From contig CP050293.1 in the NCBI GenBank assembly GCA_014189435.1, positions 5,585,001 through 5,649,000 on the forward strand: 64,000 nt of DNA, written 5' to 3'. A program made the position numbers and the translations under genes. Positions 16,253-41,380 of the stretch are shown here, piece after piece; the first letter of the stretch is position 1; each line of letters opens with the position of its first letter. This stretch comes from Mesorhizobium loti (lineage in GTDB: Bacteria > Pseudomonadota > Alphaproteobacteria > Rhizobiales > Rhizobiaceae). Below the pieces are notes generated by a model. The model ran no database searches, was not told the DNA's origin, and saw only the letters and a list, made by a program, of their open reading frames with translations.

Positions 16253-16255
16253 CGC

Positions 16256-23172: not shown

Positions 23173-23228
23173 CCTCCCGCTGATATTGTCGCGGGTCGGG
23201 CGGACGACCTATTAGCGGGAATTGCCGC

Positions 23229-24167: not shown

Positions 24168-25854
24168 GGCCACGGCTTCCGACGAGAAAATCGAGGTCGG
24201 CGCCACGATCCGCCTGCAGGACATGGTCGACGTAAAGCCCCTGATAGCCGCCGCGCATCGCCGGCTGCGGCGGAGCCCAGGATGTCCGCCGCTTTGCGAG
24301 CTCCTGTTCCGAAACGTCGAGATGCAATTTCCGCGCTTCGACATCGAGTTCGATCATGTCGCCGCTCCTGACCAACGCCAGCGGGCCGCCGATAGCGGCT
24401 TCGGGTGCGGCATGCAGAACGACAGTGCCGAAGGCGGTGCCGGACATGCGAGCATCGGAGATGCGGATCATGTCGCGGACGCCTTGCTTCAGCAGCTTCT
24501 GGGGCAATGCCATGTTGCCGACCTCAGCCATCCCCGGATAGCCCTTGGGGCCGCAATTCTTCAGCACCATGATCGACGTCTCGTCGATGTCGAGCAGGGG
24601 GTCGTCGATGCGCGCCTTGTAGTCGTCGATGTCCTCGAAGACGACGGCGCGGCCGCGATGCTTCATCAGAACCGGCGACGCGGCTGATGGCTTGATGATG
24701 GCGCCGTCGGGCGCCAGATTGCCGCGCAGCACCGCGATGCCGCCCTGCGAAGTGAGCGCCTTGTCGCGCGGTCGGATCACCTCGGGATTGTAATTTTGGG
24801 CATCAGTGATGTTGTCGCGCACGGTCTTGCCGGTGACCGTCAGCGCGTCGAGATCGAGCAGATCGGCGATCTCCTTCATGACCGCCGGAATGCCGCCAGC
24901 GTAGCAGAAATCCTCCATCAGAAAGCGGCCCGATGGCATCAGGTCGAGGATGGTCGGCACATCGCGGCCATATCTGTCCCAATCGTCCAGCGTCAGCTCG
25001 GTGCCGACGCGGCCGGCGATGGCGATGAGATGCACGACCGCATTGGTCGAGCCGCCGATGGCGCCATTGACGCGGATCGCGTTGGCGAAGGCCGCCTTCT
25101 TCAGGATGGCCGACGGGCGCAAATCCTCGTTGACCATCTCGACGATGCGCCGCCCGCTCATGCGGGCAATGCGGCTGCGGCGCGCGTCGACGGCGGGATA
25201 GGCGGCGTTGCCGGGCAGCGCCAGGCCGAGCGCCTCGACCATCGAGGCCATTGTCGAGGCGGTGCCCATGGTCATGCAGTGACCCGGCGAGCGCGACATG
25301 GCGCTCTCGGCATTGGCGAAATCCTGCTCGCTCATCACGCCGGCGCGGACATCCTCGGAGAATTTCCAGACATCGGTGCCGGAGCCGATTTCGCGGCCCT
25401 GGAAGCGGCCATTGAGCATCGGCCCGCCGGAAATGACGATCGACGGCAGGTCGCAGGAGGCCGCGCCCATGACCAGCGACGGCGTGGTCTTGTCGCAGCC
25501 AGCCATCAGCACGACGCCATCCATCGGATTGCCGCGGATCGCCTCCTCGACATCCATCGAGGCGAGGTTACGAAACAGCATCGCCGTCGGGCGCAGGTTG
25601 GACTCGCCGCAGGAGAAGACCGGGAACTCCAGCGGCAAGCCGCCGGCCTCCAGCACGCCTGCCTTGATGTGTTCGATCAGGCCACGGAAATGCACGTGGC
25701 AAGGCGTGAATTCGGAGAAGGTGTTGCAGATGCCGATCACCGGCCGGCCGTCGAAGGCGTCGTCGGGCAGGCCGTTGTTCTTCATCCAACTGCGGTGGAT
25801 GAAGGCATCCTTGCCGAGGCCGCCGAACCAGTGCTGCGATCGTCTCTTGGTCAT
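24142..25854 (-). CDS. IlvD/Edd family sugar-acid dehydratase
   Basis: 570 residues from ATG 25854; an upstream in-frame ATG at 25938 lies inside the SDR gene. Iron-sulfur cluster Cys motifs are FSCGESNLRPTAM, AGCDKTTPSLVMGA and SPGHCMTMGTASTMASM. N-terminal QHWFGGLGKDAFIHRSW is typical of the arabonate/xylonate/fuconate dehydratase subgroup rather than amino-acid-pathway IlvD. It converts an aldonate to 2-keto-3-deoxyaldonate. It is flanked by an SDR dehydrogenase and a DapA-family enzyme, and downstream of an araFGH-type transporter. Confidence 0.88.
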   Translation of the reverse strand: MTKRRSQHWFGGLGKDAFIHRSWMKNNGLPDDAFDGRPVIGICNTFSEFTPCHVHFRGLIEHIKAGVLEAGGLPLEFPVFSCGESNLRPTAMLFRNLASMDVEEAIRGNPMDGVVLMAGCDKTTPSLVMGAASCDLPSIVISGGPMLNGRFQGREIGSGTDVWKFSEDVRAGVMSEQDFANAESAMSRSPGHCMTMGTASTMASMVEALGLALPGNAAYPAVDARRSRIARMSGRRIVEMVNEDLRPSAILKKAAFANAIRVNGAIGGSTNAVVHLIAIAGRVGTELTLDDWDRYGRDVPTILDLMPSGRFLMEDFCYAGGIPAVMKEIADLLDLDALTVTGKTVRDNITDAQNYNPEVIRPRDKALTSQGGIAVLRGNLAPDGAIIKPSAASPVLMKHRGRAVVFEDIDDYKARIDDPLLDIDETSIMVLKNCGPKGYPGMAEVGNMALPQKLLKQGVRDMIRISDARMSGTAFGTVVLHAAPEAAIGGPLALVRSGDMIELDVEARKLHLDVSEQELAKRRTSWAPPQPAMRGGYQGLYVDHVLQADRGADLDFLVGSRGHAIPRESH

Positions 25855-25868
25855 GGTTTTCCCGGAAT

Positions 25869-26648
25869 TCAGGCAGGATGCTGGAGCTGGCTCAGCCCGC
25901 CATCGACGACAAGCGTGGCCGCGTTCATGAACGGGCACTCGTCGGAAATCATGAACACCGCAGCCAGCGCGATCTCACGCGCCGTGGCGATGCGGCCGCC
26001 GGGATGCAGCGCCATGGTGTTGGCGTGTGCTGCTGCCGGATCAGGAAAGCTGTTCCAGTAGTCGATGGCCTTCTGCGTCTCCACATAGCCCGGGGCCAGC
26101 GCGTTCACGCGCACGCCTTGCGCCGCATATTCGAGCGCCAGCGATTTGGTCAGGCCGAGCAGCGCGTGCTTGGCGACCGGATAGGGGAAGGTGTGCGGGA
26201 TGATGGTGAAGCTGTGCGTCGAGGCGATGTTGAGGATGGCGCCGCCGCCGCTCGCGATCATGCCCGGCAGCACCGCCTTGCTGCAATTCCAGGCGCCCTT
26301 GACGTTGACGTCGAAATTGCGGTTCCATTCTTCCTCGGTCGCCTCGAGCGGCGTCGAGAACACATTGACCCCGGCATTGTTGATCAGCGCGTTGATCGGA
26401 CCGATCTCGACGGTCGCTTGGCTGACGGCGGCGGCAATCGCAGCTCCGTCGCTGATGTCGGCTGCAAGGTGTCCGACATGGCCTTGCGGTGCGGCGAGGC
26501 CGGCGACCGTTTTGTCCAGCAGCGCACCATCGCGGTCGACCAGGAACAGCCTTGCACCTTCGGCAAGGCAGGCCTCGGCGATGGCGAGCCCGATGCCTTG
26601 CGCGGCGCCGGTCAGGAAGATGCGTTTGCCGGAAAGGCGCTCAGCCAT
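25869..26648 (-). CDS. SDR dehydrogenase, probably sugar 1-dehydrogenase
   Basis: 259 residues. Classical SDR: TGAAQGIG (~13-20), NNAG (~91-94), catalytic Tyr-Lys in YPVAKHALLG (~154-163) and a C-terminal VDGGL. The ribosome site GGAGGGAT is strong. It lies between araH and the IlvD/Edd gene, where a pathway would need an aldose 1-dehydrogenase (L-arabinose, D-galactose or L-fucose). The substrate is inferred from context only. Confidence 0.85.
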   Translation of the reverse strand: MAERLSGKRIFLTGAAQGIGLAIAEACLAEGARLFLVDRDGALLDKTVAGLAAPQGHVGHLAADISDGAAIAAAVSQATVEIGPINALINNAGVNVFSTPLEATEEEWNRNFDVNVKGAWNCSKAVLPGMIASGGGAILNIASTHSFTIIPHTFPYPVAKHALLGLTKSLALEYAAQGVRVNALAPGYVETQKAIDYWNSFPDPAAAHANTMALHPGGRIATAREIALAAVFMISDECPFMNAATLVVDGGLSQLQHPA

Positions 26649-26663
26649 TTTTATCCCTCCAGC

Positions 26664-27614
26664 CTAACGCCGGCCCAGTGCCGACGAGCGCAGATTGTCG
26701 AGCAGCACGGCAAGCAGCAGGATCACGCCGCGCACGATATACTGGTAGAAGGCCGGGATGTTGAGCAGGTTCATGGCGTTCTCGGCGATGCCCATGATCA
26801 GCACGCCGACGATGACGCCCGACATGGTGGCGCGGCCGCCGGCAAGCGAGACGCCGCCGAGCACGCAGGCCGAGATGACCGAGAGTTCCAGCCCGACCGC
26901 CGCGTTGGGCTGGCCCGAGGTGATGCGCGACGCCAGCAGGATACCGGCGATGCCGCAGACGACGCCCTGCAGCGCAAAAATCCAGATGCGCGTCCAGTCG
27001 ACATTGACGCCGGCAAGCCGCGAGGCCTCCGGATTGCCGCCGATGGCCAGCGTGTTCTTGCCGAAGACGGTGCGGTTGAGCACGAAGCCGAAGATGCAAA
27101 ACAGGATGGCGAGCACCCAGACCGGCGTCGGTATGCCGAGCAGTTTGGACAGTGCCAGCTGGTAGAAATCCGGGCTGTTGATGCCGACGGCGCGGCCGTC
27201 GGAAGCGATCAGCGCAAGACCGCGCACGATCTGCATGGTGGCCAAAGTGGTGATCAGCGCGTTGATGCGGAATTTGGCGATGACGACGCCGTTGATGAAG
27301 CCGACGAAGGCGCCGCAGGCGATTGCCGCCAGGAGGCCGAGCAGGATCGAACCGGTGTAATTCGACGCCATCACCGCGACCATGCCGGCGAAGGCGACGA
27401 TCGAACCAACCGACAGGTCGAAGTCGCGCGCGGCAAGGCAGAACATCATGGTGCAGGCGACGATGCCGACGGTGACCACCGACTGCAGCAGGCCGAGCAT
27501 GTTGCGGTCGGTAAGGAAGTTCGGCACCAGCAACGACACCAGCGCGAAGGCAACGACGAAGATGACGACGAGGCCCTGTTCGCCGAGCAGGATTTTCTTC
27601 AACTGGTCGGTCAT
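26664..27614 (-). CDS. araH: Sugar ABC transporter permease, AraH-like
   Basis: 316 residues, about ten membrane segments. It closely follows remembered E. coli AraH segments: FCLAARDFDLSVGS, INALITTLATMQIVRGLA, NTLAIGGNPEASRLAGV, ISACVLGGVSLAGG and ENAMNLLNI. It forms the inner-membrane channel for L-arabinose, and possibly D-galactose/D-fucose, with AraF and AraG. The symbol rests on this similarity; ribose-type permeases are the alternative. Confidence 0.85.
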   Translation of the reverse strand: MTDQLKKILLGEQGLVVIFVVAFALVSLLVPNFLTDRNMLGLLQSVVTVGIVACTMMFCLAARDFDLSVGSIVAFAGMVAVMASNYTGSILLGLLAAIACGAFVGFINGVVIAKFRINALITTLATMQIVRGLALIASDGRAVGINSPDFYQLALSKLLGIPTPVWVLAILFCIFGFVLNRTVFGKNTLAIGGNPEASRLAGVNVDWTRIWIFALQGVVCGIAGILLASRITSGQPNAAVGLELSVISACVLGGVSLAGGRATMSGVIVGVLIMGIAENAMNLLNIPAFYQYIVRGVILLLAVLLDNLRSSALGRR

Positions 27615-27624
27615 GCCAAAGTCC

Positions 27625-29160
27625 TCAGGATGCGATCGCGTCGGGAGTTTTCTGATCGGGGAGAGCGGCGGCCAGGATCGCCCTTTCGGCGAACTGGTCG
27701 CGGGTGAGTTCGGCGCTGACGCGTCCGCCGCACATCACCAGGATGCGGTCGCAGATGCCCATCACCTCCGGCAGTTCGGACGAAACGACGACGATCGCCA
27801 TGCCGTCCTGCGCAAGCTGGTAGAGCAATTCGTAGATTTCCGATTTGGCGCCGACATCGATGCCGCGCGTCGGTTCGTCGACGATGAGGACCCGCACGCC
27901 CTGTTCGGACAACCAGCGGCCAAGAATGACCTTCTGCTGGTTGCCGCCGGAGAGGTTGATGATGTCCTGCTTGCGCGACGGCGTGCGCACCTTGAGCTTC
28001 TTGATGAAGGTTTCGGCGGTGGCGATCTCGCTGGCGCGGTTGAGCACGCCGAAGCGCGTGTGATGGCGCCGCGACGAGATGTTGATGTTTTCCTCGATCG
28101 AACGGCCCTGGATGATGCCGTCATGCTTGCGATCCTCCGAGCACAGCACGATGCCGGCCCGGATCGTGCCACGCGGATCGGTGGCGCGGACCAGCTTGCC
28201 GTCGACAGTGATGGTGCCGCCCGAGCGCGGATCGGCGCCATAGACCAGCCGCATCAGTTCCGAGCGCCCGGCGCCGATCAGACCGAAGAAACCGACGATC
28301 TCGCCGGCGCGAGCCTCGAAGCTGGCCGGCGTCTTCAGTTTCGAGCCGGACAGGGTCTCGACCTTCAGTCTGATATCTCCAGCCTGGCGCGGGCGAAAGC
28401 CCCAGATATCAGAGATTTCGCGGCCGACCATTTCGGCGACGACCTGGTCGCGCGTGACGCCTTTCAAGGAAGCGTGGTGCGCCGCGAGCTTGCCGTCGCG
28501 CAGTACGGTCAGGCTGTCGCAGAGCCGGAACACTTCGTCGAGCCGATGCGAGACGTAGATGATGACCTTGCCCTCGCCGCGCAGGCGGTCGATCAGGGCA
28601 AACAGGATTTCGCTTTCGCGCGACGACAGCGACGAGGTCGGTTCGTCCAGCGCGATGACGCGTGCGTCGAGCATGATCGCCTTGGCGATCTCGACCATCT
28701 GGCGTTCGCCGATCGACAGCGTCTTGACCTTGCGGCGCATGTCGATGTCGATGCCGGCCGATTTCAGCTTGGCGCCGACGTCGTCCAGCATCCGGCGGCC
28801 GGCGATGATGCCGGCGTTGGCGGGGAAACGCCCGAGGCTGAGATTTTCGGCAACGGTAAGCTCGGGGACGAGCTGTAGTTCCTGATGGATGACGATGACG
28901 CCATTGTCGAAGGCATCCCGGGTCGAGGCATAGGCCTGGACCTTGCTGTCGATGCGGATCTCGCCCTCATCGGCATGCTGGTCGCCGGACAGGATCTTGA
29001 TCAGGGTGGATTTGCCGGCGCCGTTCTCGCCCATCAGGCCGTGCACGGCGCCCTTGTCGACGCCGAACGAGACGTCCGACAGCGCCTTGACGCCCGGATA
29101 GGTCTTGGTGATGTGCGAGAAGTCGAGAAAGGACAAGGGCGCCGATCCTTCTTGTGCCAT
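27625..29160 (-). CDS. araG: Sugar ABC transporter ATP-binding protein, AraG-like (two ABC domains)
   Basis: 511 residues, two tandem ABC domains. The N-terminal Walker A is GENGAGKSTLIK with signature SIGERQMVEIAKAI. The C-terminal domain has a degenerate Walker A (GLIGAGRSELMR) and an intact signature LSGGNQQKVILGRWLS with DEPTRGIDVGAK. This is the arabinose/galactose/ribose ATPase class, with AraG-like NINISSRR. A strong stem-loop lies only 4 nt before its start codon, leaving no free Shine-Dalgarno. Confidence 0.88.
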   Translation of the reverse strand: MAQEGSAPLSFLDFSHITKTYPGVKALSDVSFGVDKGAVHGLMGENGAGKSTLIKILSGDQHADEGEIRIDSKVQAYASTRDAFDNGVIVIHQELQLVPELTVAENLSLGRFPANAGIIAGRRMLDDVGAKLKSAGIDIDMRRKVKTLSIGERQMVEIAKAIMLDARVIALDEPTSSLSSRESEILFALIDRLRGEGKVIIYVSHRLDEVFRLCDSLTVLRDGKLAAHHASLKGVTRDQVVAEMVGREISDIWGFRPRQAGDIRLKVETLSGSKLKTPASFEARAGEIVGFFGLIGAGRSELMRLVYGADPRSGGTITVDGKLVRATDPRGTIRAGIVLCSEDRKHDGIIQGRSIEENINISSRRHHTRFGVLNRASEIATAETFIKKLKVRTPSRKQDIINLSGGNQQKVILGRWLSEQGVRVLIVDEPTRGIDVGAKSEIYELLYQLAQDGMAIVVVSSELPEVMGICDRILVMCGGRVSAELTRDQFAERAILAAALPDQKTPDAIAS

Positions 29161-29164
29161 GGCG

Positions 29165-29194
29165 AACAGGCGGCGGGATGAGCCGCCGCCTGTT
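29165..29194 (-). other. Stem-loop between araF and araG
   Basis: AACAGGCGGCGG and CCGCCGCCTGTT form a perfect 12-bp stem with a 6-nt loop. It begins 13 nt after the araF stop and ends 4 nt before the araG ATG. There is no T-run. It would protect araF mRNA and limit araG translation. Confidence 0.7.
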
Positions 29195-29207
29195 TGTACA
29201 GGGAGGA

Positions 29208-30197
29208 TTATTGGATGCCGAGACCCTGGCGGACCTTCTGGTAGTCGTCGCGCTTGGCGAGTGCACCCGAGGTCAGGATCAGCTTCTCCGGTTCCTTGTT
29301 GTTGGCAACCCAGTCATACATGTTGAGCGCCGTCTCGTAGCCATGACGTTTCGGCGAGATGATCACCGTGCCGACGAAGCCGGTGGCAGTCGGCTTCTTG
29401 AACTCGTTGATCGCTGAATCCGCGCCGCCAATGCCGACGCCGATCACGTTCTCGGCCGGAATGCCGACGCTTTCGGAAGCACGCACCGCACCCAGCACCG
29501 CTTCGTCGTTGAGGCCGAAGGAGACCCACTTCTTGATGTCGGCATGGGCGTTGAGCACGACCGTCGCGGCGTTGAGGGCAGCTTCGGTATCGGTCTTGGC
29601 CTGCGGCGCGTCAAAGATATTCTCGGCCTTGAAGCCGTTCGCCTTGAGCACCGAGATGGCGCCTTCGACGCGATCGACGGCGGTCGGCAGCTGGTCGTAG
29701 GAGACTCGGATGGCGCCGACCTCGTCGGCCTTCCAGCCGCGCGCCTTCATCTCGTCGACGATCGCCTGGCCGACGGCCTCGCCGATCTTGGTGGCCGAGA
29801 TGCCCATATGCGGCACGTCTTCCAGCGCCTTGCCGTCGGCGCCGACCAGACGGTCGTCGACGGTCATCAGCTTGAGATTGTTGGCGGCGGCTTTGGCGAC
29901 GATGCCGGGTCCGAGTTTCACGTCGGGTGTGCAGACGATGAAACCCTGGGCGCCCTGGGCGCCGAGATTGTCGATCGCCGACATCAGCTTCTCACCGTCC
30001 TCGGCGCCGATCTTGACCAGGGTAAAGCCTTTTTCCTTGGCGGCCTGGTCGGCGAATTTCCATTCGTCCTGGAACCACGGCTCCTCCGGCTGTTTGACGA
30101 TGAAACCGATCTTGGTGTCCTGAGCATATGCAGCAATGGTCGTGACGGACAGCACGGCAAGCGCACCCGCGACGAGCGCGGTCTTCAAAAGTCGCAT
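29208..30197 (-). CDS. araF: Periplasmic sugar-binding protein, AraF-like
   Basis: 329 residues from ATG 30197, the same length as E. coli AraF. The signal peptide MRLLKTALVAGALAVL ends near AYAQ-DT (~25). The mature start KIGFIVKQPEEPWFQDEW is nearly the E. coli AraF opening, and GFIVCTPDVKLGPGIVAKA matches its second strand region. It delivers L-arabinose or a similar pyranose to AraGH. It is transcribed away from the DgoR-like regulator across a region with a clear inverted repeat. Confidence 0.88.
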   Translation of the reverse strand: MRLLKTALVAGALAVLSVTTIAAYAQDTKIGFIVKQPEEPWFQDEWKFADQAAKEKGFTLVKIGAEDGEKLMSAIDNLGAQGAQGFIVCTPDVKLGPGIVAKAAANNLKLMTVDDRLVGADGKALEDVPHMGISATKIGEAVGQAIVDEMKARGWKADEVGAIRVSYDQLPTAVDRVEGAISVLKANGFKAENIFDAPQAKTDTEAALNAATVVLNAHADIKKWVSFGLNDEAVLGAVRASESVGIPAENVIGVGIGGADSAINEFKKPTATGFVGTVIISPKRHGYETALNMYDWVANNKEPEKLILTSGALAKRDDYQKVRQGLGIQ

Positions 30198-30256
30198 GAT
30201 TTCCTCCCAGCGATAGGCCGGGCGCTCAGCCCGGATGCCGGAGTCTCTATTCGTTT

Positions 30257-30289
30257 TTATCATACTCGTCAATTGATCTGGTATGATAA
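30257..30289. promoter_or_regulatory. Inverted-repeat operator candidate between araF and the GntR gene
   Basis: TTATCATAC and GTATGATAA are perfect 9-bp arms with a 15-bp spacer, and the centre holds the 8-bp palindrome TCAATTGA. It is in the AT-rich 200-bp divergent region 60-92 bp upstream of araF. It is a plausible binding site for the adjacent FadR/DgoR-like regulator. Confidence 0.6.
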
Positions 30290-30398
30290 TTAATGTACAT
30301 GCTCTGACCAACGACCGCTGGCGCAAATCATCCGCATCCTTTAAGGCCGGACCAATTGTGCGAACCCAGCAGGTTCGCCGCCTTGGAGGAGGGCTGAG

Positions 30399-31139
30399 GT
30401 GACCGAGATTTTGAAGAAGGCACCTGGCGACACCCGCCGCCCGCGCGTCATGCCCGATGTGACCAAGGCGATGGCCTCGGACATCTTTTCCGGGCGCTAC
30501 CCGGCCGGATCCTCCTTGCCTACGGAAAACGAACTCGGCGTCGAATATGGCGTCAGCCGCACCGTCATCCGCGAGGCGCTGAAGGTGCTGGCGGCCAAGG
30601 GGCTGGTGCTGTCACGGCCGCGCGTCGGCACGATCGTCTGCAACGAGGACGACTGGAACATCATCGACCCGCAGGTGCTGGCCTGGCACGCACCGCATGC
30701 GCTGGACGACAAGCTCTTCGACGCCATCCTCGAAACGCGCCGGGCCATCGAGCCGCTGGTCGCGGAACTCGCCGCCACCCGCGCGACGCTGCAGGAGATC
30801 GCCGATCTCGAAGCCGCCTGGCGCGGCATGGCCGGCGCCGGCGAGGATCTGGCCGCCTTCTCGCGCAGCGACATCGCTTTCCACCAGATCGTCTATGCCG
30901 CGAGCCACAACCCGATCTTTCGCCAGATCGGCAATCTGATCGACACAGGGCTGAAATTCTCGCTGGAGGCGACGGCGGTGATTTCGCTCGACCGGCGCAC
31001 GGAGGCCGTGGCGGCGCACCGCGAGGTGGTCGAGGCGCTGCGCATGCGCGACGTCGATGCGGCACGTGGGGCGGCAAACAAGATCCTCGACCTCGCGGCG
31101 CGCGACCTCGTCAGCGCCAAGAAACTCAAGAGCAACTGA
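30399..31139 (+). CDS. GntR/FadR-family regulator, DgoR-like
   Basis: 246 residues with GTG start preceded by GGAGGAGGG. Winged helix ~20-90 ([25 protein letters not shown]), then [12 protein letters not shown], similar to the DgoR linker, and an FCD effector domain. It is 8 bp upstream of dgoD in the same direction and divergent from araFGH, so it probably senses a sugar acid such as galactonate and controls both units. Confidence 0.87.
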
Positions 31140-31147
31140 GACTGCGC

Positions 31148-32296
31148 ATGAAAATCATCTCGCTCACCACCTACATCGTTCCGCCGCGCTGGCTTTTCCT
31201 GAAGATCGAAACCGATGCCGGCGTCACCGGCTGGGGCGAGCCGGTCGTGGAAGGCCGGGCGCTGACCGTCGAGGCAGCGGTCAAGGAGCTTGGTGATTAT
31301 CTCATCGGCAAGGATCCCCGCCTGATCGAGGACCATTGGACGGTGATGCATCGCGGCGGCTTCTATCGTGGCGGGCCGATCCTGATGAGCGCCATTGCCG
31401 GCATCGACCAGGCGTTGTGGGACATCAAGGGCAAGGCGCTCGGCGTGCCCGTGCATGAACTGCTCGGCGGCAAGTTGCGCGACACGATCAAGGTCTATTC
31501 GTGGATCGGCGGCGACCGGCCTGCGGAGGTCGCGGCCGGCGCCAGGGAAATGGTGGCGCGCGGCTTCCTGGCGCTCAAGATGAACGGCACGGAAGAGCTG
31601 CAGATCGTCGACAGCCATGACAAGATCGACGCCGCTGTCGAACGCGTCGCCATGGTGCGCGAGGCTGTCGGCCCCAACATCGGCATCGCTGTCGATTTCC
31701 ACGGCCGCGTGCACCGGCCGATGGCGCGCGCCCTGGTCAAGGAGTTGGAGCCTTACAGGCTGATGTTCATCGAGGAGCCGGTGCTCAGCGAAAACCGCGA
31801 GGCGTTGAAGGAGATCGCCGCTCTTGGCTCGACGCCAATCGCGCTCGGCGAGCGGCTCTACAGCCGCTGGGACTTCAAGTCGGTGTTCGAGGAAGGTGTC
31901 GTCGATATCATCCAGCCAGACCTGTCGCATGCCGGCGGCATCACCGAATGCCGCAAGATCGCGGCGATGGCGGAAGCCTATGACGTCGCCGTGGCGCCGC
32001 ACTGCCCGCTTGGGCCAATCGCGCTTGCCGCCTGCCTGCAGCTCGACGCGGTCAGCTACAACTGCTTCATCCAGGAACAGAGCCTCGGCATCCACTACAA
32101 CGCCGCCAACGACCTGCTCGACTATGCAGCCAACAAGGATGTCTTCCGCTACGAGGATGGCTATGTCGCCATCCCCGACGGCCCAGGCCTGGGTGTCGAG
32201 ATCGACGAGGACTATGTCAAGGAACGCGCTAAAGAAGGCCACCGCTGGCGCAACCCGATCTGGCGCCACAAGGACGGTTCTTTCGCCGAGTGGTGA
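31148..32296 (+). CDS. dgoD: D-galactonate dehydratase
   Basis: 382 residues, the same length as E. coli DgoD. Enolase-superfamily (mandelate racemase) fold with near-identical blocks: [86 protein letters not shown] and DWRNP-like [12 protein letters not shown]. Metal ligands Asp/Glu/Glu and the catalytic His residues appear intact. It converts D-galactonate to 2-keto-3-deoxygalactonate. The following kinase and aldolase genes are not in this window. Confidence 0.95.
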
Positions 32297-32315: not shown

Positions 32316-33977
32316 TCACCGGTTACCGGTCCGGGTAAACAGCCGCTTCCAGTTCCTGATCCGTTTGGCGGTCGGCACCGTCATGTTCTCGTCGGGCGAC
32401 TGCGCAACCTGACTGTTTTCGACGGAGCCGTTACGTGCCTGCAGGACTTGCTGGAGGCGTGGCCTGTCGATCTTGCCGGTTGGCGTCAGCGGCAAAGACT
32501 CCATCGCATGGATTCGGCCTGGAATTTTCCACGGCGGCAAGATGGCCCCCAAGCCGGCTCTTAGTGCGTCAGCCCGGAACAAGGCTCCCTGCTTCATCAC
32601 GACGAAGGCGGCAAGCGAGTGCGCATCCTGGCGGAGCTCGGTGATGACGACGGCTTCATCCACCATTGGAAGCTGCAGCAAAGCCTGCTCGACTTCCCGC
32701 GTCTCGACGCGATAGCCGCGAATCTTGACCTGGTCGTCGCGGCGCCCGAGAAATTCAAGACTGCCATCGCTCGACAGCCGCCCGAGGTCGCCGGTGTGAA
32801 ACAGGCGCTGGTCGGGGAAACCTGGGGCATCGCGAAAATATTTCGCCGTTTCGGAAGGCTGGCGCCAATAGCCTTCGGCCAAAAAGGCACTGCGCACGAC
32901 GAGCTCGCCGACGCCGCCCGGTTCGGCCGGTTGCCCGTCCTCATCGACGACCAGGAGAAACTTGTCGGCGACGGGTCGAGGCGCCGGCACCGTGCCTGAT
33001 CCAGGTGTCTCGCCCGGAGCCACCGATGCCACGGCGATATGGCCGGCCTCGGTGGAAGAGAAACGGTGACGCAAGCCGCAGGACGGGGCGAAGCGGCGGC
33101 GCCATAGTTCGATATCGGAGGCAATGACCGTCTGGCCTGCCAGCGCCACCAGCCGGACCGAGGGATGCAGGCCGTCGCCGTCGATCATCTCCAGATATTT
33201 GCGAAACAGCATCACGGGCGGGTGCAGCAGCGTGATGCGACGCTCGTCGATCCACGCGCCGAGTTCGCCGAGGCCACGCGATGCGGCATCGTAGAGTTCC
33301 AGCGTGGCCCCATTCAGCAGCGCGCCGAAAACATCCGCCTCCGATGAGGCGAAACTGCAATAGGTCAGAAGAGACTGCCGGTCGGTGGGGGCCAACCCGT
33401 CATACCCGGCACAAAGCCAGGCCCTGTGCAGCACGGTGCGATGGCTTTTGACCACACCCTTCGGCCGCCCGGTGCTTCCCGACGTGTAGAAGATCGCCGC
33501 CGGGTCGCTTGGCTCGACCGAAACATGCAGCGCATCGGCGGAGTACCGCGCGTCGATGTCTTCCAGCAGCAGAAGCCGGCTTTCATCGCCGACAAGGTCA
33601 CGCGCTGCTGCTGCGTGGGCCGCGTCGGTCAGCAGCAGGTCCGGGACGGCATCGCCGATGATGTCACGTTGCGCTTTGAGCGGCATAGCCGGATGGACGC
33701 ACAGGAACGCCTTCGCCGCCTTGAGCACGGCCAGCGCGCATATCACCATCTCGGGCGAATGGTCGACAAGATAGGCGACGCATCCGTTCCCGGGCTGCTT
33801 GCGCTCGAGGATCGCCCGGGCCAGTTGATTGGTCCGCCGGTCGACCTCGTCATAGGTCCATGGCCGGTCGCCGCCACCGATCGCCACGTGCGAGCCGAAG
33901 CTGTGCACCACTTTGCCGAAACGCGCCGGAATGCTCCCGTCCAGCTCGCTTCGATCGAACGTCGGCAGCTCAGCCAT
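32316..33977 (-). CDS. Stand-alone adenylating enzyme (NRPS A-domain type)
   Basis: 553 residues from ATG 33977, overlapping the NRPS stop by 8 nt. ANL-superfamily motifs: A3 YTSGSTGRPKG (~164-174), A5-like RFSSTEAGH, A7 HTGDLGRLSSDG, A8 GRRDDQVKIRGYRVE and A10 PTGKIDRPRL. No carrier domain follows. The A4 region reads SFASSEAD instead of the amino-acid-activating FDxS, so the usual Asp that binds an amino group is not apparent. It may load a carrier in trans or activate a non-amino acid. It is the last gene of the PPTase-NRPS cassette. Confidence 0.85.
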   Translation of the reverse strand: MAELPTFDRSELDGSIPARFGKVVHSFGSHVAIGGGDRPWTYDEVDRRTNQLARAILERKQPGNGCVAYLVDHSPEMVICALAVLKAAKAFLCVHPAMPLKAQRDIIGDAVPDLLLTDAAHAAAARDLVGDESRLLLLEDIDARYSADALHVSVEPSDPAAIFYTSGSTGRPKGVVKSHRTVLHRAWLCAGYDGLAPTDRQSLLTYCSFASSEADVFGALLNGATLELYDAASRGLGELGAWIDERRITLLHPPVMLFRKYLEMIDGDGLHPSVRLVALAGQTVIASDIELWRRRFAPSCGLRHRFSSTEAGHIAVASVAPGETPGSGTVPAPRPVADKFLLVVDEDGQPAEPGGVGELVVRSAFLAEGYWRQPSETAKYFRDAPGFPDQRLFHTGDLGRLSSDGSLEFLGRRDDQVKIRGYRVETREVEQALLQLPMVDEAVVITELRQDAHSLAAFVVMKQGALFRADALRAGLGAILPPWKIPGRIHAMESLPLTPTGKIDRPRLQQVLQARNGSVENSQVAQSPDENMTVPTAKRIRNWKRLFTRTGNR

Positions 33978-36900
33978 GGCTTTCGGCAAACTGGTTTTCT
34001 CCCACGATCTCCAGTCCGGCATCGAACCCGGCCTTGCGGGCGTAGGCGAGGAGTACCTTGTAGGTCGATGACCTCAGCCGCACGCCTTGGCTCAGGCTCT
34101 CTTGCCGGGTGCGCAATTCCATTTCGCCCGGGATGAGGATTTCGGTGGCGTTTTCGGCGTGTTCGCCATTTTTGGTCTGCTCGATGAGACGATCGACGCG
34201 TTCGGTGAAGTCGGCCAAGGGCATGAACCGCTCGGGATCGAGCGCCATGAAGAAATGGCCGTAATCCGGCGTGTGGGAGCCTTCGCGCAACCTGTCCTGA
34301 TGGTGGTCGCTGCCAAAACCGGCGCCTGTGAGCACGCCGGCGAGCACTTCCATCACCATGGCCAGGCCATAGCCCTTGTGTCCGCCGATCGGTACGCCGA
34401 GCCCGGATGCGAGATCGCTAAGGTCTGTCGAAGGCCGCCCGAGTCGGTCCAGAATCCAGCCCGCCGGCAACGGACTGCCTTCGGCGACCGACAGGCCGAT
34501 CTTGCCGCGCGGCGCAACGCTCATGGCGACGTCGAGAAGGATGGGAAAATGCCGCCCTGCCGGAATGCCGACGCCGAGCGGGTTGTTGCCGAAAGTCGGC
34601 GTAACGCCGCCGGTCGGCGCCAGGATCAGCGGTCCATTGGTGGTGCACAGACCGATCAGCCCTTTCCGTGCCGCCTGCCAGACATAGTGGCCGGCGGCGC
34701 CGAAATGGTTGGAGCGGCGGACACCGACAATGCCGACGCCATGCCTGCCCGCCTTTTCGATGGCGAGGTCCATTGCCACCGTGCTGACCCACTGGCCGGG
34801 GCCGTTGTCGCCATCGATGCCGGCGATGGTGGCGCTGTCATGCTCGATGCGGATTTGCGGGTGCGGATTGATCTTGCCCGAGGCAATCCGCGTGGCGTAG
34901 CGGGGAATGCTGACAATGTCGTGCGTCGGTTGTCCGCGCAGGCTTGCCTCGAGCTGCACTTCGGTGACGATCGCCGCACCCTGCGCGCTCAGTCCGGCCC
35001 GCGTCAGCGCTTCGCGGCCATAGGCACGGAGGCTTTCGATCGTCACCGGAACTTTCGCCGCGTCCACCGGGGCAGCCGCAACGGTTTGCCCAGGCCGCGC
35101 CTGGGAGGCAGCGCGCGCCAGATCGGCGATCGTCTGGTGCTGGTAGAGCTGACGCAAATCGATGGCCAGGCCGGCCTTGCCTGCTTCGACGACGATGTTG
35201 ATGCTGAGCAGGGAATTGCCGCCGAGGTCGAAGAAGTTGTCGTGCAGGCCAACCTCCTCCAGCCTCAGGACCTTCTTCCAAACCACCGCCAGGATCGTCT
35301 CGGCCTCCGTTGGCGCCACGCCATGCAACGCGGCCTGGCCCAGGGGAGCTATGCCGGCAATTGACTGCGTCGCGGCTTGCGGCTGGCTGGCAAGCAGAGC
35401 CCGCCGGTCGATCTTGCCGTTTGGCGTGCGCGGCAAGCGATCCAGGATGACGATGCGTTGAGGCAGCATGTATTGCGGCAGCAGCCGCCGCAGAAAATCG
35501 CGCAGCCGCCGCGACAGAGCCAGCGTTTCCGCATCATGCGGGACATTCACCGCAACGAAGGCGACCAGGCGTTTGCGATTGCCGATATCGTCATCTTCGA
35601 GGGCATCCTCGACAATTCGGACGAGACATTCGCGCACCTCCGGATGCGCGTGGAGTGCAGCCTCGATCTCACCCGGTTCGATGCGGAAGCCGTTGATCTT
35701 GATCTGTTCGTCGGCACGCCCGACAATTTCGATCGTCCCGTCGGGCAGGTAGCGTGCCAGATCGCCGGTTCGCTGCAGCCGCTCGCCCGTGCTGAACGGG
35801 TTCGGCACGAGGTTGCTGGCTCCGGAGTGATTGATGTAGCCGCGGCCGACACCGGCGCCGCCGACATAAAGCTCGCCGCTGATGCCGACCGGAACCGGAC
35901 GACGGGACGTGTCCAAGACATAGGCCTGCGTATTGGCGATCGGCCGGCCGATCGGGATCATCCCCGTCGTGCCGGCCTCGACCGGAATGGGATGGACGGT
36001 CACGATTCCCGTCGTCTCGGTCTGGCCAAACATGTTGATGAATTCCGTCGCCGGCCTGCAGAGACGCCGCCATTTTTCGACCAGGGCGCCCGGCAGGGGC
36101 TCGCTGGCCCACAACATCAGCCGCACCCGATTGTCGAGCAGTCCCTGGCGCACGGATGGATCGAGCGACATCAGCACATGCAGGCAGCCGGCCGAAAAGG
36201 ACGGGACGAGATCGACCACCGACACGCACTGGCGGCGCACCGTCTCGAACAGCAGATGCGGGTCGCTGATTTCCTCGGCAGAGGCGATCGAAACCGCCGC
36301 ACCGCACGACAAGGGAACGGCAAACTGGCGTATCGACGAGGAAAACGAAAACGAGGCGGTGTGCAGCCAGGTGTCGTCCGGTTCGAGCCCGACGGCGCGG
36401 ACCATCGCCTGCGCATAGTGGCCGACATTCGCCTGCGTGATCATCGCGCCCTTGGGCCGGCCCGTGGAGCCCGACGTATAGATGACGTAGGCGAGCGCAT
36501 CGGGTGCAGCGACGACGCCCGGATTGCCTGGATCCTGCTCCGCGACGGACGACCGGCAGGCGTCGATGCAAATGGCCCGCCCCGCGGCAGGTTGGCCTGA
36601 TGCCCCCGGCTGAAACGCGGCGCCGAATTTCGGCAACAGCGACGTCTCGGTGATGAGCAGTGCCGCACCCGCATCGGCCAGCATGAAGGCAATGCGATCG
36701 GGCGGGTAGTCGGGGTCAAGCGGCAGAAACGCGCCGCCCGCCTTCCACACGCCGAGCAACACCGCCAGCACCTCGGCCGACCTTGGCAGGCAGACCGCAG
36801 TCAATGTCTCGCTGGTGACGCCGCAACTGCTGAAATAGCGTGCGAAGCGGTTGGCCCGTTCATTCAGCTCGCGATAGGTGAGCCGCTGGTCCCGGTCCAG

Positions 36901-39900
36901 CACGGCGACAGAATCAGGCGTCCGCTCGACCTGTGCCTCAAACAGCTGGACATAGTCCTGCCCCAGCAGTTCTCCGGCTTGCGTGCGGTTCCAGTCGGTC
37001 TCGATCTGGCGACGATCAACCTCGGGCAACAGCGGCAATTGCGAAAGCGTTTGCGCGGGATCGCTTGCTATGCCTTCGAGCAAGGCCTGGAACTGCCGGG
37101 CCAGCCGATCGATGGCGGCCTGCTCATGGAGATCGGCGTTGAATTGCCAGGTCGCAGCCATCCCGTCCGGGGTTTCCGACAGGTACAAAGTGAGGTCGAA
37201 TTTCGCCATCGCCCTGTCGATGGGCAGCTTCTGTGCCGCAAGATCCGGCGCGAAATCGAAAGACGGTCCCGCCAGATGATCCGGGACGTTCTGGAACGCG
37301 AACATCACCTGGAACAGGGGCGTGTGGCCGGGATCGCGCGCGACCTTCAGCTGATCGACGATGCGTTCGACGGCGACATCCTGATGCGCGTAGGCGTCGA
37401 GCGCCGTCGAGCGGATGCGACCGAGCAATTCGACGAAGGACGGGTCGCCGCCCAGCGTCGTGCGCAAAACCAGCGTGTTGGCGAAGAAGCCGATGAGCGG
37501 CTCCAGTTCCTTCCTCGGGCGATTGGCGATCGGCATGCCGACGACGCAATCATCCTGCCCGTTGTATCGGAACAGCAATGTCTTGAAGGCCGCCAGAAAG
37601 ACCATGAACATTGTCGCGTCCTGGCTTCGGCCGAGGAGCTTCAGGCGATCCGTCGTTTGCCGATCGATCTCGACCTGCACCGTGCCACCGCGATGGGACT
37701 GGACCGCCGGGCGGGGCCGATCCGTGGGCAGCGTGCAGATCGGCGGCGGGTCCTTGAGTTGCCGGACCCAGTATGCGGTCTGGCGTTCGATCTCCGCCGT
37801 CTCGAGGCTGCGTTGCTGCCAGGCGGCGAAGTCTCCGAACTGCAGCGGCAGCTCCGCGAGCGGCGACGCCCGGTTGTCATGGAAAGCTTCGTAGAGCTGC
37901 TTCAGCTCGTCATGCAGCACACCCACCGACCAGCCATCGCAGATGATGTGGTGCATCGTCAGCAGCAAGGCATGGTCCTGCTCGGCCAGCTGAACCAGGC
38001 TGACGCGAAACAACGGACCTTGCGCCAGATCGAACGGTTCAGCACTTTCCTGCGTGGCGATGCGCATGGCCTCGGCGGTTCGCGCATCCGCCTCGTGGCC
38101 GGCCAGGTCGATCGTCACCAGCCCGGTTTCCTGAAATCCGGAAACGACCTGTACAGGGTCGCCGTCGCGCAGGTGAAAGGTCGTGCGCAAGATGTCGTGG
38201 CGTCGGCGAATCTCATCGAGCGCCAAGGCCAGCGCACGCTCATCAAGCGCGCCTCTCAACCACAGCGAGGCCGACATGGTGTAAGCGCTGCCGGCGCCCA
38301 TCCGGTCGAGGAAAAAAACGCGCTGCTGGGCTGAGGAAAGCGGCGCAGGCACAGCCTCCTGTCGGCGAGGAATGCGTGTCGTTGCCTGCCCGGAGGCCGA
38401 TCCCCGCTCGAGCCGCGCCAGGCCATCCGCGACGAGGTTGGCCATCTCCTCGCCGATGCGCTGGGAAAGCCGGGCCACGGTCGGGCAGTCAAACATGCAA
38501 TCGACCGGCAATGTGATCTCGAATGTGGCATGCAGCCGGACGAGAACCTGCATTGCGGTCAGCGAATGACCGCCAAGGTCGAAGAAGTCGTCATCGATGC
38601 CGGGCGGATCGGTTCCGAGAACCTCGGCAAAGACCGCCGCTACCCGGCGCTCGATCGCGGTTCGCGCAACCACCTTGCCAGCCTGCGGCGGAACAGGTTG
38701 ACCGTCCTGTTCTTGCAGGTTCAGCGCCAGAGCCAGATACTTGCGATTGATCTTGCCGCCGGCATCGACCGGGACCTCATCCACCAGCACGATCCGTTGC
38801 GGCACCTTGGAGCGCGCCAGCCGCTCGGCGACAAAGCCGCGGATCTGCTGCGTCGACAGCACTTTCCCCGGCCTGGGAACGACCGCTGCGGCGATAGTCT
38901 CGCCAAGCACCGGATGGGGGATGCCGAAGACGACCGCCTGTTCGATGCCGGGATGGTCGAGCAGGACTTGCTCCACCAGCGCCGGTGCGATCTTTTCGCC
39001 GCCGCGATTGATGGTGTCCGCCAGGCGGCCGGAGACGAACAGATAGCCGTCTGCGTCGAGATGGCCCCTGTCTCCTGTCCGCAGCCAGCCATCGACGAAA
39101 GCCGCCTGATTGGCAGCGGGATCGCCATCGTAGCCGGGCATGACATTGGCGCCACGAATGACAATTTCGCCTCTCTCGTCCGGCATCAGGAGACGTCCGG
39201 CTTGATCCATGATGGCGATCCGCGGGCCTGCGGACCTGCCGACGGAGCCACGCTTGCGTTCGAACGGCGGCAGGCCGTTGCTGGCAATTTGCGGCGCCGC
39301 CTCGGTCATCCCGTAGGCCTCGACGAACGGTACGCCGAACACGCCTTCGATATCCGCGATCCATTGGGATGGCATTGGCGCCGAAGCCGAACGAATGAAG
39401 CGCAGCCCGGCCGCCCGCGGGTCTCCCCGGCAAAGACGGATCTGGTCGAGGATCGTGCGATGGATGGCGGGCGAGGCCGAATACCAAGTCGGTCTGAATT
39501 CTTCGAGGCCGCTGAAAAAGCCGTCGGCGGAAAAGCCCGCCAGGCTGACGTAGCAACTCCCTGAAACCAGCGACGCCAAAAGGCTGCTGATGCCATGGAT
39601 ATGGAACAGCGGCATCACGCCCAGACAGCGGTCGGTGTGCCGCAGATCCAGTGCCGCGCAGATATCCTGCGCCGAAACGCAGAGGTTTCGATGGGTCAGC
39701 GGTACCAGCTTGGGCCGCGCCGACGTGCCCGAGGTGAACAGCAGCAGCGCGGTATCGTCCGGCGTTGCGGCATCCCGTTGTGAGGCCATGTGCCGATCAT
39801 CGCGATGCGTCGCGCCGGCACCTGTCAGCAAAAAGCGCCCGGCCGCCGCACCCGGCTCGGCAAGCAGTTGCAGGACGCGGATATCGAGTGAGGCCGCCAC

Positions 39901-40245
39901 AGCAAGCAGCGGCGATTGCCAGCCATGCGGCACGATCAGCGCCGTGGCGCGCAGCGCGTCCAGCTGCGATTCAAGTTCCCGCGCCGGCCATGCGGGGTTC
40001 AAGGGAGTGCACGCCGCATTGGCTGCGACGGCCACGATCGCTACCGCGGCTTCCGCACCCTCGGGCAGCAGCAAGGCGACACGGTCGGACAGGCCGATGC
40101 CCTGCAGCGCCAGCGCTTCGCCGACATGGCGGATCTGGGCAGCCAGCCCTTCAAAGGTAAGCGCTGGCCGTCCCGCGGCCAGAAGGGCCACCGTCTGCGA
40201 ATTGTATCCGGCATGCCGGTCCACATGGTCACGTATCGTGCCCAT
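33970..40245 (-). CDS. Nonribosomal peptide synthetase A-PCP-C-A-PCP with C-terminal LDH2-family reductase
   Basis: 2091 residues. A1 (~1-510) resembles acyl/aryl-CoA ligases (FTSGTSARPK, MPLFHIHGI, YGMTEAAP). PCP1 has DDDFFDLGGHSL (~551-562). The C domain (~635-1080) has an intact HHIICDG (765-771). A2 (~1100-1620) has YTSGSTGRPKG (1256-1266), an A4 motif FSFSSSI without the usual Asp, and NGKIDRRAL. PCP2 has DNFFDLGGNSL (~1669-1679). From ~1735 to the end is a full LDH2-family NAD(P) oxidoreductase: SNHFGAAGHY with catalytic His1847, APRGKI, and GGHKGYGLAM. The SHGxxR motif reads THDIVS, so the carboxylate-binding Arg is Ser. There is no thioesterase. It is the middle gene of a three-gene cassette; product unknown. 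Confidence 0.92.
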   Translation of the reverse strand: MGTIRDHVDRHAGYNSQTVALLAAGRPALTFEGLAAQIRHVGEALALQGIGLSDRVALLLPEGAEAAVAIVAVAANAACTPLNPAWPARELESQLDALRATALIVPHGWQSPLLAVAASLDIRVLQLLAEPGAAAGRFLLTGAGATHRDDRHMASQRDAATPDDTALLLFTSGTSARPKLVPLTHRNLCVSAQDICAALDLRHTDRCLGVMPLFHIHGISSLLASLVSGSCYVSLAGFSADGFFSGLEEFRPTWYSASPAIHRTILDQIRLCRGDPRAAGLRFIRSASAPMPSQWIADIEGVFGVPFVEAYGMTEAAPQIASNGLPPFERKRGSVGRSAGPRIAIMDQAGRLLMPDERGEIVIRGANVMPGYDGDPAANQAAFVDGWLRTGDRGHLDADGYLFVSGRLADTINRGGEKIAPALVEQVLLDHPGIEQAVVFGIPHPVLGETIAAAVVPRPGKVLSTQQIRGFVAERLARSKVPQRIVLVDEVPVDAGGKINRKYLALALNLQEQDGQPVPPQAGKVVARTAIERRVAAVFAEVLGTDPPGIDDDFFDLGGHSLTAMQVLVRLHATFEITLPVDCMFDCPTVARLSQRIGEEMANLVADGLARLERGSASGQATTRIPRRQEAVPAPLSSAQQRVFFLDRMGAGSAYTMSASLWLRGALDERALALALDEIRRRHDILRTTFHLRDGDPVQVVSGFQETGLVTIDLAGHEADARTAEAMRIATQESAEPFDLAQGPLFRVSLVQLAEQDHALLLTMHHIICDGWSVGVLHDELKQLYEAFHDNRASPLAELPLQFGDFAAWQQRSLETAEIERQTAYWVRQLKDPPPICTLPTDRPRPAVQSHRGGTVQVEIDRQTTDRLKLLGRSQDATMFMVFLAAFKTLLFRYNGQDDCVVGMPIANRPRKELEPLIGFFANTLVLRTTLGGDPSFVELLGRIRSTALDAYAHQDVAVERIVDQLKVARDPGHTPLFQVMFAFQNVPDHLAGPSFDFAPDLAAQKLPIDRAMAKFDLTLYLSETPDGMAATWQFNADLHEQAAIDRLARQFQALLEGIASDPAQTLSQLPLLPEVDRRQIETDWNRTQAGELLGQDYVQLFEAQVERTPDSVAVLDRDQRLTYRELNERANRFARYFSSCGVTSETLTAVCLPRSAEVLAVLLGVWKAGGAFLPLDPDYPPDRIAFMLADAGAALLITETSLLPKFGAAFQPGASGQPAAGRAICIDACRSSVAEQDPGNPGVVAAPDALAYVIYTSGSTGRPKGAMITQANVGHYAQAMVRAVGLEPDDTWLHTASFSFSSSIRQFAVPLSCGAAVSIASAEEISDPHLLFETVRRQCVSVVDLVPSFSAGCLHVLMSLDPSVRQGLLDNRVRLMLWASEPLPGALVEKWRRLCRPATEFINMFGQTETTGIVTVHPIPVEAGTTGMIPIGRPIANTQAYVLDTSRRPVPVGISGELYVGGAGVGRGYINHSGASNLVPNPFSTGERLQRTGDLARYLPDGTIEIVGRADEQIKINGFRIEPGEIEAALHAHPEVRECLVRIVEDALEDDDIGNRKRLVAFVAVNVPHDAETLALSRRLRDFLRRLLPQYMLPQRIVILDRLPRTPNGKIDRRALLASQPQAATQSIAGIAPLGQAALHGVAPTEAETILAVVWKKVLRLEEVGLHDNFFDLGGNSLLSINIVVEAGKAGLAIDLRQLYQHQTIADLARAASQARPGQTVAAAPVDAAKVPVTIESLRAYGREALTRAGLSAQGAAIVTEVQLEASLRGQPTHDIVSIPRYATRIASGKINPHPQIRIEHDSATIAGIDGDNGPGQWVSTVAMDLAIEKAGRHGVGIVGVRRSNHFGAAGHYVWQAARKGLIGLCTTNGPLILAPTGGVTPTFGNNPLGVGIPAGRHFPILLDVAMSVAPRGKIGLSVAEGSPLPAGWILDRLGRPSTDLSDLASGLGVPIGGHKGYGLAMVMEVLAGVLTGAGFGSDHHQDRLREGSHTPDYGHFFMALDPERFMPLADFTERVDRLIEQTKNGEHAENATEILIPGEMELRTRQESLSQGVRLRSSTYKVLLAYARKAGFDAGLEIVGENQFAESHG

Positions 40246-40343: not shown

Positions 40344-41057
40344 TCAACGCGCGGAGAGCTCAAAACATGAAAACAGGGTTCCGCCGCTGCTGCCGAAGCG
40401 ACCCTCAAAACAGCGGCTGTCGATCGCCGCCAGGCGCTTTGATGGAACGATCCGGGCCCTGGCGGCGTGTTTTTCCACATCCAGTTCGACGCGAACATCG
40501 TGAAACGCCAAAAACCGGCCGGTAAGCGGGGAATACATTTTGTAGAACGCTTCCTTGATCACGAACAGAAGCTTTGGCAGGTCGCAGCCCAGACGCCTTT
40601 CAATCTCTTCCCGCCCCTCTAGTTCGGCAGCGTTGGACACCAATCGCGCCAGTTCGTACGAAAGGGGAGAATCCTCCTCGATGTCGATGCCGACGCCGAG
40701 GAATTCGGTGGATGATCCGACGGCGACGACGCACAGGCTTCGGGTATGAGAGATGGAACCGACAACGCCTGTCGGCCATAGCGGCGCACGATTGTCCCCG
40801 ATCGGGATGACGCTGCCGCCCGCGCCAAGGCCCTGCAACGCCTGCCGTGCGTAGAAGCGTCCCGCGCGAAATTCACGGCGTCGTGCCGGCACGACATTGC
40901 CCAGCGAAAGTTCTTCCTCGAGCAACAGGTCGCGATCGGCTGGTGTGAGATCGCCGCCCTCGATGACGAGGCCGTGGCCAACCAACCGCCGGACAGCTGC
41001 CACCAGCTGGACTGACGAACGATCGTCGCGGAGTTCCGGCTCAACAGGCAATGCCAT
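40344..41057 (-). CDS. 4'-phosphopantetheinyl transferase (EntD/Sfp-like)
   Basis: 237 residues from ATG 41057, with GGAG upstream. PPTase motifs: PLWPTGVVGSISHT (~92-105), GVGIDIEE (~121-128, Mg-binding Asp/Glu) and FVIKEAFYKMY (~165-175). The length and the WPxGxxGSxSH block fit the EntD group. It transfers phosphopantetheine from CoA to the two PCP domains of the adjacent NRPS, converting them to the active form. It is the first gene of the cassette. Confidence 0.92.
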   Translation of the reverse strand: MALPVEPELRDDRSSVQLVAAVRRLVGHGLVIEGGDLTPADRDLLLEEELSLGNVVPARRREFRAGRFYARQALQGLGAGGSVIPIGDNRAPLWPTGVVGSISHTRSLCVVAVGSSTEFLGVGIDIEEDSPLSYELARLVSNAAELEGREEIERRLGCDLPKLLFVIKEAFYKMYSPLTGRFLAFHDVRVELDVEKHAARARIVPSKRLAAIDSRCFEGRFGSSGGTLFSCFELSAR

Positions 41058-41380
41058 TCCTTTGCTCCGGAAAAATTTAGTAACGACTAGACACTCGCCC
41101 GCTCCTTCGTGCCGATGGCGATCGCACACTAAACACAAGGAAGTGGCAACGTCTCTCGGTCGGAAGCTTGATCAATCCATTTGTAAATTTACGACTGGCG
41201 CAGGGTTGAAAAGTCGAAACATTTCAAGTTCATTGCGCCCACTGCGCGTGTCATCCCGAAAGCAGACGAACTTTGCGCGGGCTACCTTGGCAGGCGCCGA
41301 ACCACAGCGGTAATTGACCCGGCGTCGCCAATGAGCTTGCTGATCGACTTAAGATAGTTGTGGTGATTGGGGGACAAGCC
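41058..41380. promoter_or_regulatory. Intergenic region with second copy of TTGTAAATTTACG
   Basis: A 323-bp divergent gap between the PPTase gene (minus) and a membrane protein gene (plus). The 13-mer at 41181-41193 is identical to the one at 10241-10253 and lies ~125 bp upstream of the PPTase start. The region is AT-richer than its neighbours. No other repeat, RNA gene or ORF with a ribosome site is apparent. Confidence 0.4.

Follow-up and report, generated by a model that had tools for sequence, protein, structure and literature searches.

An NRPS-like megasynthase with a fused LDH2 oxidoreductase domain, a conserved family found in Mesorhizobium and in distant bacteria

In carboxylate-type enzymes of the LDH2 family, such as AllD and malate dehydrogenase, the histidine of the SxHFG motif and a conserved tyrosine are the catalytic residues, and the arginine of the SHGxxR motif contacts the substrate carboxylate. 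Ketoreductases (KRs) of depsipeptide modules in nonribosomal peptide synthetases (NRPSs) are of the short-chain dehydrogenase/reductase (SDR) type. Adenylation (A), carrier (T) and KR domains are described as acting in turn on 2-oxo acids (PMC11355689), and an aliphatic residue in place of Asp235 is given as typical for keto-acid A domains (PMC10949194). Here we analyse a 64,000-nucleotide stretch of Mesorhizobium loti (contig CP050293.1, positions 5,585,001 to 5,649,000), called the window below, which encodes an NRPS-like megasynthase with an LDH2 domain behind its last carrier, NRPS-LDH2. An earlier note on this DNA had described such a C-terminal fusion, and a single frame of 2091 amino acids confirms it. 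The domain order is given below, with C for condensation; all conservation counts refer to 113 full-length family members longer than 1800 amino acids.

33970..40245, minus strand: NRPS-like megasynthase A1-T1-C-A2-T2-LDH2, 2091 amino acids, single reading frame
38731..40218, minus strand: A1 adenylation domain, oxalyl-CoA-synthetase-like, residues 10-505
38455..38646, minus strand: T1 carrier, Pfam match at residues 534-597, Ser561 invariant in 113/113
37003..38346, minus strand: condensation domain, Pfam match at residues 634-1081, HHxxxD invariant in 113/113
35386..36948, minus strand: A2 adenylation domain, residues 1100-1620, pocket S-S-R-D-L-A-M-G-I
35101..35298, minus strand: T2 carrier, about residues 1650-1715, Ser1678 invariant in 113/113
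34051..35043, minus strand: LDH2 domain, Pfam Ldh_2, residues 1735-2065

The region behind T2 matches the Ldh_2 profile (PF02615) with 370.7 bits against a cut-off of 38.8, covering profile positions 2-332 of 333, and its matches among solved structures fit the LDH2 fold. His1775, His1847 and Lys1957 are invariant in all 113 members, as is Tyr1783. The SxHFG histidine and the conserved tyrosine of carboxylate-type enzymes are both present in every member, and the catalytic positions, among them His1847 of a motif that had been read as intact, are intact throughout the family. When the window gene is paired with each of six further Mesorhizobium loci, dN/dS (ratio of nonsynonymous to synonymous substitution rates) is lowest in LDH2 among four domains in 6/6 pairs, with values of 0.05-0.17 for LDH2 and 0.20-0.31 for A1, C and A2. 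All domains compared are under purifying selection. The arginine of SHGxxR, present in AllD and malate dehydrogenase, is missing here. This motif reads THDIVS in the window, and the arginine position is occupied by Ser in 73 members, Asp in 31, Ala in 8 and Gly in 1, so the replacement noticed earlier in the single sequence extends to 113/113.

A database search with residues 1700-2091, which among 8000 candidates took proteins of about 1150-3660 amino acids, finds 120 public clusters, each with Ldh_2, Condensation, AMP-binding and PP-binding listed; a carrier and Ldh_2 on one chain, which the earlier note had proposed to look for, are found repeatedly. Since these clusters were found by their LDH2 part, they gauge the spread of the fusion and not the constant presence of LDH2. 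Their source names include Mesorhizobium, Acidobacteria, Bryobacteraceae, Vicinamibacterales, Thermoanaerobaculia, Verrucomicrobiae and Phycisphaerales. With the whole protein as query, 7 of the 146 Mesorhizobium genomes give a full-length match without stops, at 72-100% identity, and all seven matches include the LDH2 part. Outside the genus the fusion is rare among the genomes sampled: 2/297 in the acidobacterial phylum of G146 (G146 and G147, both known beforehand), 3/200 in its acidobacterial order (G146, G844 and G1023, the last copy broken off by a contig end) and 1/12 in the order of G147 (G147 itself). The class (1/385) and order (1/249) of the window genome give this genome alone. Of 3863 plasmid records, the 10 listed align no further than residue 1720, with identities of 34-38%, and one record falls in the 60-80% identity band. 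Among viral contigs, three stretches fit a pattern and none encodes a relative. NRPS-LDH2 is a conserved family and no accident.

The gene belongs to an operon of three genes, newly recognised here, together with a 4'-phosphopantetheinyl transferase (PPTase) gene and that of a stand-alone adenylating protein, SA:

40344..41138, minus strand: PPTase, directly upstream of the NRPS gene
32316..33977, minus strand: SA, stand-alone adenylating protein, Ala at the Asp235 position

From its likely ATG start, SA shares 8 bases with the NRPS gene at the stop codon of the latter. In all seven carriers of the genus the PPTase lies immediately upstream and SA immediately downstream of the NRPS gene. The genes flanking the window operon recur beside it only in G035 and G022; the other four loci are flanked differently. 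A promoter and terminator scan upstream found nothing.

The earlier note had placed LDH2 in the position of a thioesterase (TE) and considered it as the possible release step. The first point calls for correction and the second is weakened, since a TE accompanies the system in several genomes. In G031 and G119 the gene after SA encodes a peptidyl carrier protein (PCP) joined to a TE, PCP-TE, while in G049 SA is itself an SA-PCP-TE fusion; 3/7 carriers thus have PCP-TE next to the operon or as a fused part of it. The acidobacterial genome G844 has an SA-PCP-TE ahead of its NRPS. A PCP-TE gene is present in 6/7 carriers, the copies of G031 and G119 being those beside SA. In the window genome it is an orphan (G000:C1:6949669-6950706), about 1.3 Mb from the window operon and 75% identical to the G119 copy that adjoins SA; the surrounding 19.9 kb encode no A, C or LDH2 domain. 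A Bryobacteraceae genome has a different partner beside its NRPS-LDH2 gene, SA-PCP joined to a thiamine diphosphate (ThDP) enzyme, whose ThDP part has benzoylformate decarboxylases as its closest solved structures:

L118, 8137-11772: adenylation-carrier-ThDP enzyme (TPP_enzyme N/M/C) fusion, Bryobacteraceae

In two acidobacterial genomes a hydrophobic, apparently multi-pass membrane protein adjoins NRPS-LDH2 (L115, about 15370-16300; L117, 2244-3140), and by eye it is a candidate for the HTTM/gamma-carboxylase kind.

The adenylation domains point away from ordinary amino acids. The three best PDB hits of A1 are oxalyl-CoA synthetases, at 267-332 bits with the next hit at 191, and A1 belongs with this group and not with the amino-acid group. 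The histidine of the TEAxH motif has a role in oxalyl-CoA synthetases. It is found in the plant, yeast and rhizobial free enzymes and is kept in 5/5 free Mesorhizobium homologues of A1 fetched, while A1 has Pro318 there. As this histidine is replaced, we do not claim oxalate as the substrate of A1. In the alignment of A2 with gramicidin synthetase LgrA, Ser1302 stands opposite the amine-binding Asp, which we take to be position 235. This numbering agrees with PMC11355689. The nine pocket positions of A2 read SSRDLAMGI in 90 of 113 members, with close variants in 22 and one outlier, so 112/113 members from distant phyla have an identical or almost identical pocket. SA has Ala at the Asp235 position, or Val in G844, and this fits the keto-acid pattern. 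No adenylation domain of the system has the canonical Asp235, which is newly recognised here. P0242, P0248, P0250, P0336 and four more large NRPSs of other layouts share the A4 motif of A2, F-S-S-S-x-R-Q.

We propose, with rather less than even confidence, that LDH2 acts as an on-line 2-oxoacyl/2-hydroxyacyl oxidoreductase in a compact three-gene line for non-amino acids. The line would join carboxylic acids other than ordinary alpha-amino acids: A1 would put a small acid onto T1, A2 a second acid onto T2, and C would link both through an ester or an amide. On the T2-bound acyl group, LDH2 would then pass a hydride between C2 and NAD(P)H, most likely in the direction from 2-oxoacyl to 2-hydroxyacyl. 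The LDH2-family histidine acts as acid/base, a role that His1847 would fill here, and the lost arginine would leave room for the thioester arm. Release would probably proceed through a trans thioesterase, PCP-TE or the SA-PCP-TE of relatives, and not through LDH2 itself. A wider reading, in which LDH2 is a new on-line NRPS redox domain for carrier-bound acyls and works with three non-amino-acid A domains towards one conserved product in rhizobia, Acidobacteriota, Planctomycetota and Verrucomicrobiota, appears to us almost evenly balanced, if still on the doubtful side. The on-line reduction of a 2-oxoacyl or imine, as the earlier note put it, stands in part. The fusion is real and its catalytic positions are intact. 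A2 lacks the amine-binding Asp, but it has Ser where an aliphatic residue is typical of keto-acid A domains, and its A4 motif is also found in NRPSs without a listed LDH2.

A number of observations weigh against this proposal. A1 departs from oxalyl-CoA synthetases by His318 to Pro. A2, with Ser at 235 and Arg at 239, is no neat match to the keto-acid pattern. A search with the A2 region, of which we took the best 120 of 8000 matches, scored over whole proteins and so favouring large NRPSs, gave 118 new NRPSs. Among these, 8 of 118 have the F-S-S-S-x-R-Q motif and 0/118 have Ldh_2 in their Pfam lists. Seven of the eight were domain-mapped, and the A domain stands behind C in three and is N-terminal in four, with no reductase in their precomputed Pfam lists; one of them was checked for its full pocket, and this pocket is identical to that of A2. 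A substrate loaded by an A2-type domain after C, where no reductase is listed, should already bear its nucleophile. These NRPSs seem to use the A2-type substrate with no reductase involved, which speaks against simple keto-acid loading, so we infer rather than observe the direction and the substrate of LDH2. The partners are also not constant. There is no PCP-TE match in the carrier G034, and PCP-TE is present in 3 of 14 genus genomes without the NRPS-LDH2 gene, chosen by list order; its tie to the pathway is therefore no more than suggestive. For G147, the 40 kb fetched contain no SA beyond the A domains of the NRPS itself.

Further points of this kind come from LDH2 enzymes without a carrier. 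The nearest free-standing relatives come from three loci of Chloroflexi. They share 58-60% identity with the fused domain, lack the SHGxxR arginine and lie among genes that resemble those of sugar uptake or sugar catabolism, judged by reading the translations:

L034, 9869-10993: free-standing Chloroflexi LDH2 without the arginine
L035, 9905-10990: free-standing Chloroflexi LDH2 without the arginine
L036, 9737-10990: free-standing Chloroflexi LDH2 without the arginine

Their motifs read THNVGD, THNMGD and THNMGG. Among the 94 short proteins listed, with fragments of fused genes mixed in, the arginine is found in 0 of 91 readable sequences. Among 73 more distant LDH2 loci it is kept in 60 and missing in 13. 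The earlier note had explained the arginine loss by a thioester substrate and had named the same change in free acid-reducing enzymes as the finding that would overturn this. Its loss in free-standing enzymes goes half of that way. The change is compatible with a carrier-bound substrate and is no proof of it, as free-standing enzymes lack the arginine too.

Among other explanations, we regard as unlikely that LDH2 runs as a dehydrogenase, turning a T2-bound 2-hydroxyacyl into a 2-oxoacyl for use by a partner. Since A2-type domains occur in C-A-T modules for which no reductase is listed, A2 may load a hydroxy-bearing acid, and the ThDP partner of Bryobacteraceae could take up the 2-oxoacyl; against this, the sequence gives no direction and this partner is known from one locus only. 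It is improbable that LDH2 is a release domain reducing the T2 thioester to an aldehyde or alcohol in the manner of SDR-type reductase (R) domains. Its C-terminal place, a chain without a TE and the missing carboxylate-binding arginine would suit this role, but its fold is that of LDH2, TE-bearing partners exist, and we know of no LDH2 enzyme that works on an acyl thioester. Reduction of a C=N bond, a ketimine or cyclic imine made on T2 after condensation, has a precedent of the same family and fold in DpkA (1wtj), which acts on piperideine-2-carboxylate; we give it little weight, because the amine-binding Asp is missing from both A2 and SA and the three conserved genes include none for cyclisation or amination. 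Equally doubtful is that LDH2 acts on a free small acid to feed the line and is fused to it only for the sake of co-expression or channelling. The free-standing sisters, at 58-60% identity, lack the arginine as well, but the T2-LDH2 order is held along the 113-member alignment, which favours action on the carrier. Two genes joined through a missed stop or an assembly error can be dismissed for this window, since, although a few proteins among the database matches look split (P0121, P0131), 120 public clusters have these Pfam domains together, the gene is full-length and unbroken in 7/7 carriers of the genus, 113 of 121 proteins examined exceed 1800 amino acids and all domains compared are under purifying selection.

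In P0121 and P0131 the NRPS and LDH2 parts are seemingly separate proteins, on long contigs of equal size. P0127, P0128, P0165 and P0171 seem to show a split of NRPS and LDH2 or a PCP-LDH2 protein alone, for example in Pirellulaceae. These six may reflect frameshifts or natural splits.

An origin of the free LDH2 enzymes from within the fused group is unsupported. FastTree and a quick IQ-TREE run place the free Chloroflexi-type enzymes inside the fused group. The best tree with the fused rows kept as one clade scores 3.39 log-likelihood units above the free search and is not rejected by the approximately unbiased (AU) test (p 0.576), so the nesting has no support.

The window also has an apparent pentose/sugar-acid catabolic cluster at 22498-32296, with an AraG/AraH-like ABC transporter, an SDR, an L-arabinonate dehydratase, a dihydrodipicolinate synthase (DHDPS)-family protein, a galactonate dehydratase and GntR/FCD regulators. 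A second, stand-alone Ldh_2 gene lies at about 56298-57260 on the plus strand, and the window genome has two more Ldh_2 genes beyond this pair.

The earlier note knew of no described NRPS with this architecture, nor do we. In the open-licence literature, the only literature searched, we found no description of the fusion among the records listed and no papers on PF02615 together with NRPSs, which does not prove its absence from print. NRPS-LDH2 looks like a real route to a small molecule, and apparently one that has not been described. If our proposal is right, it would give assembly-line carriers a second, unrelated fold for redox chemistry. The conserved A2 pocket points to one compound across distant phyla, and with the pocket alike in 112/113 members one solved product would probably annotate the rest. 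As the core operon has only three genes, expression in a laboratory host is practical.

Compared with the LDH2 or type II malate/lactate dehydrogenases (1v9n, 2x06, AllD 4fju, DpkA 1wtj), the domain described here is fused behind a carrier, and the SHGxxR arginine is changed to Ser, Asp, Ala or Gly. The oxalyl-CoA synthetases AAE3 and Pcs60, the closest solved relatives of A1, differ in that A1 is followed by a carrier and has Pro for the TEAxH histidine in 109/113 members. NRPSs with a C-terminal R domain have an SDR-type thioester reductase; Ldh_2 stands after T2 here instead. The A-T-TE layout of NRPS-like 2-oxo-acid synthetases of the terphenylquinone type (PMC9047271) is shared by the SA-PCP-TE proteins of G844 and G049, which have Val or Ala at 235. 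These adjoin a dimodular, C-containing megasynthase, and their activity is only putative. The depsipeptide modules with an embedded KR (cereulide, valinomycin, StsA) likewise combine on one chain a carrier, an NAD(P)-dependent oxidoreductase and an A domain that lacks canonical Asp235, and they share the idea of on-line 2-oxo reduction (PMC11355689). They differ in that a KR, which Pfam does not find in NRPS-LDH2, does the reduction there and an LDH2-fold domain after T2 would do it here, and in that position 235 is aliphatic there and Ser1302 in A2.

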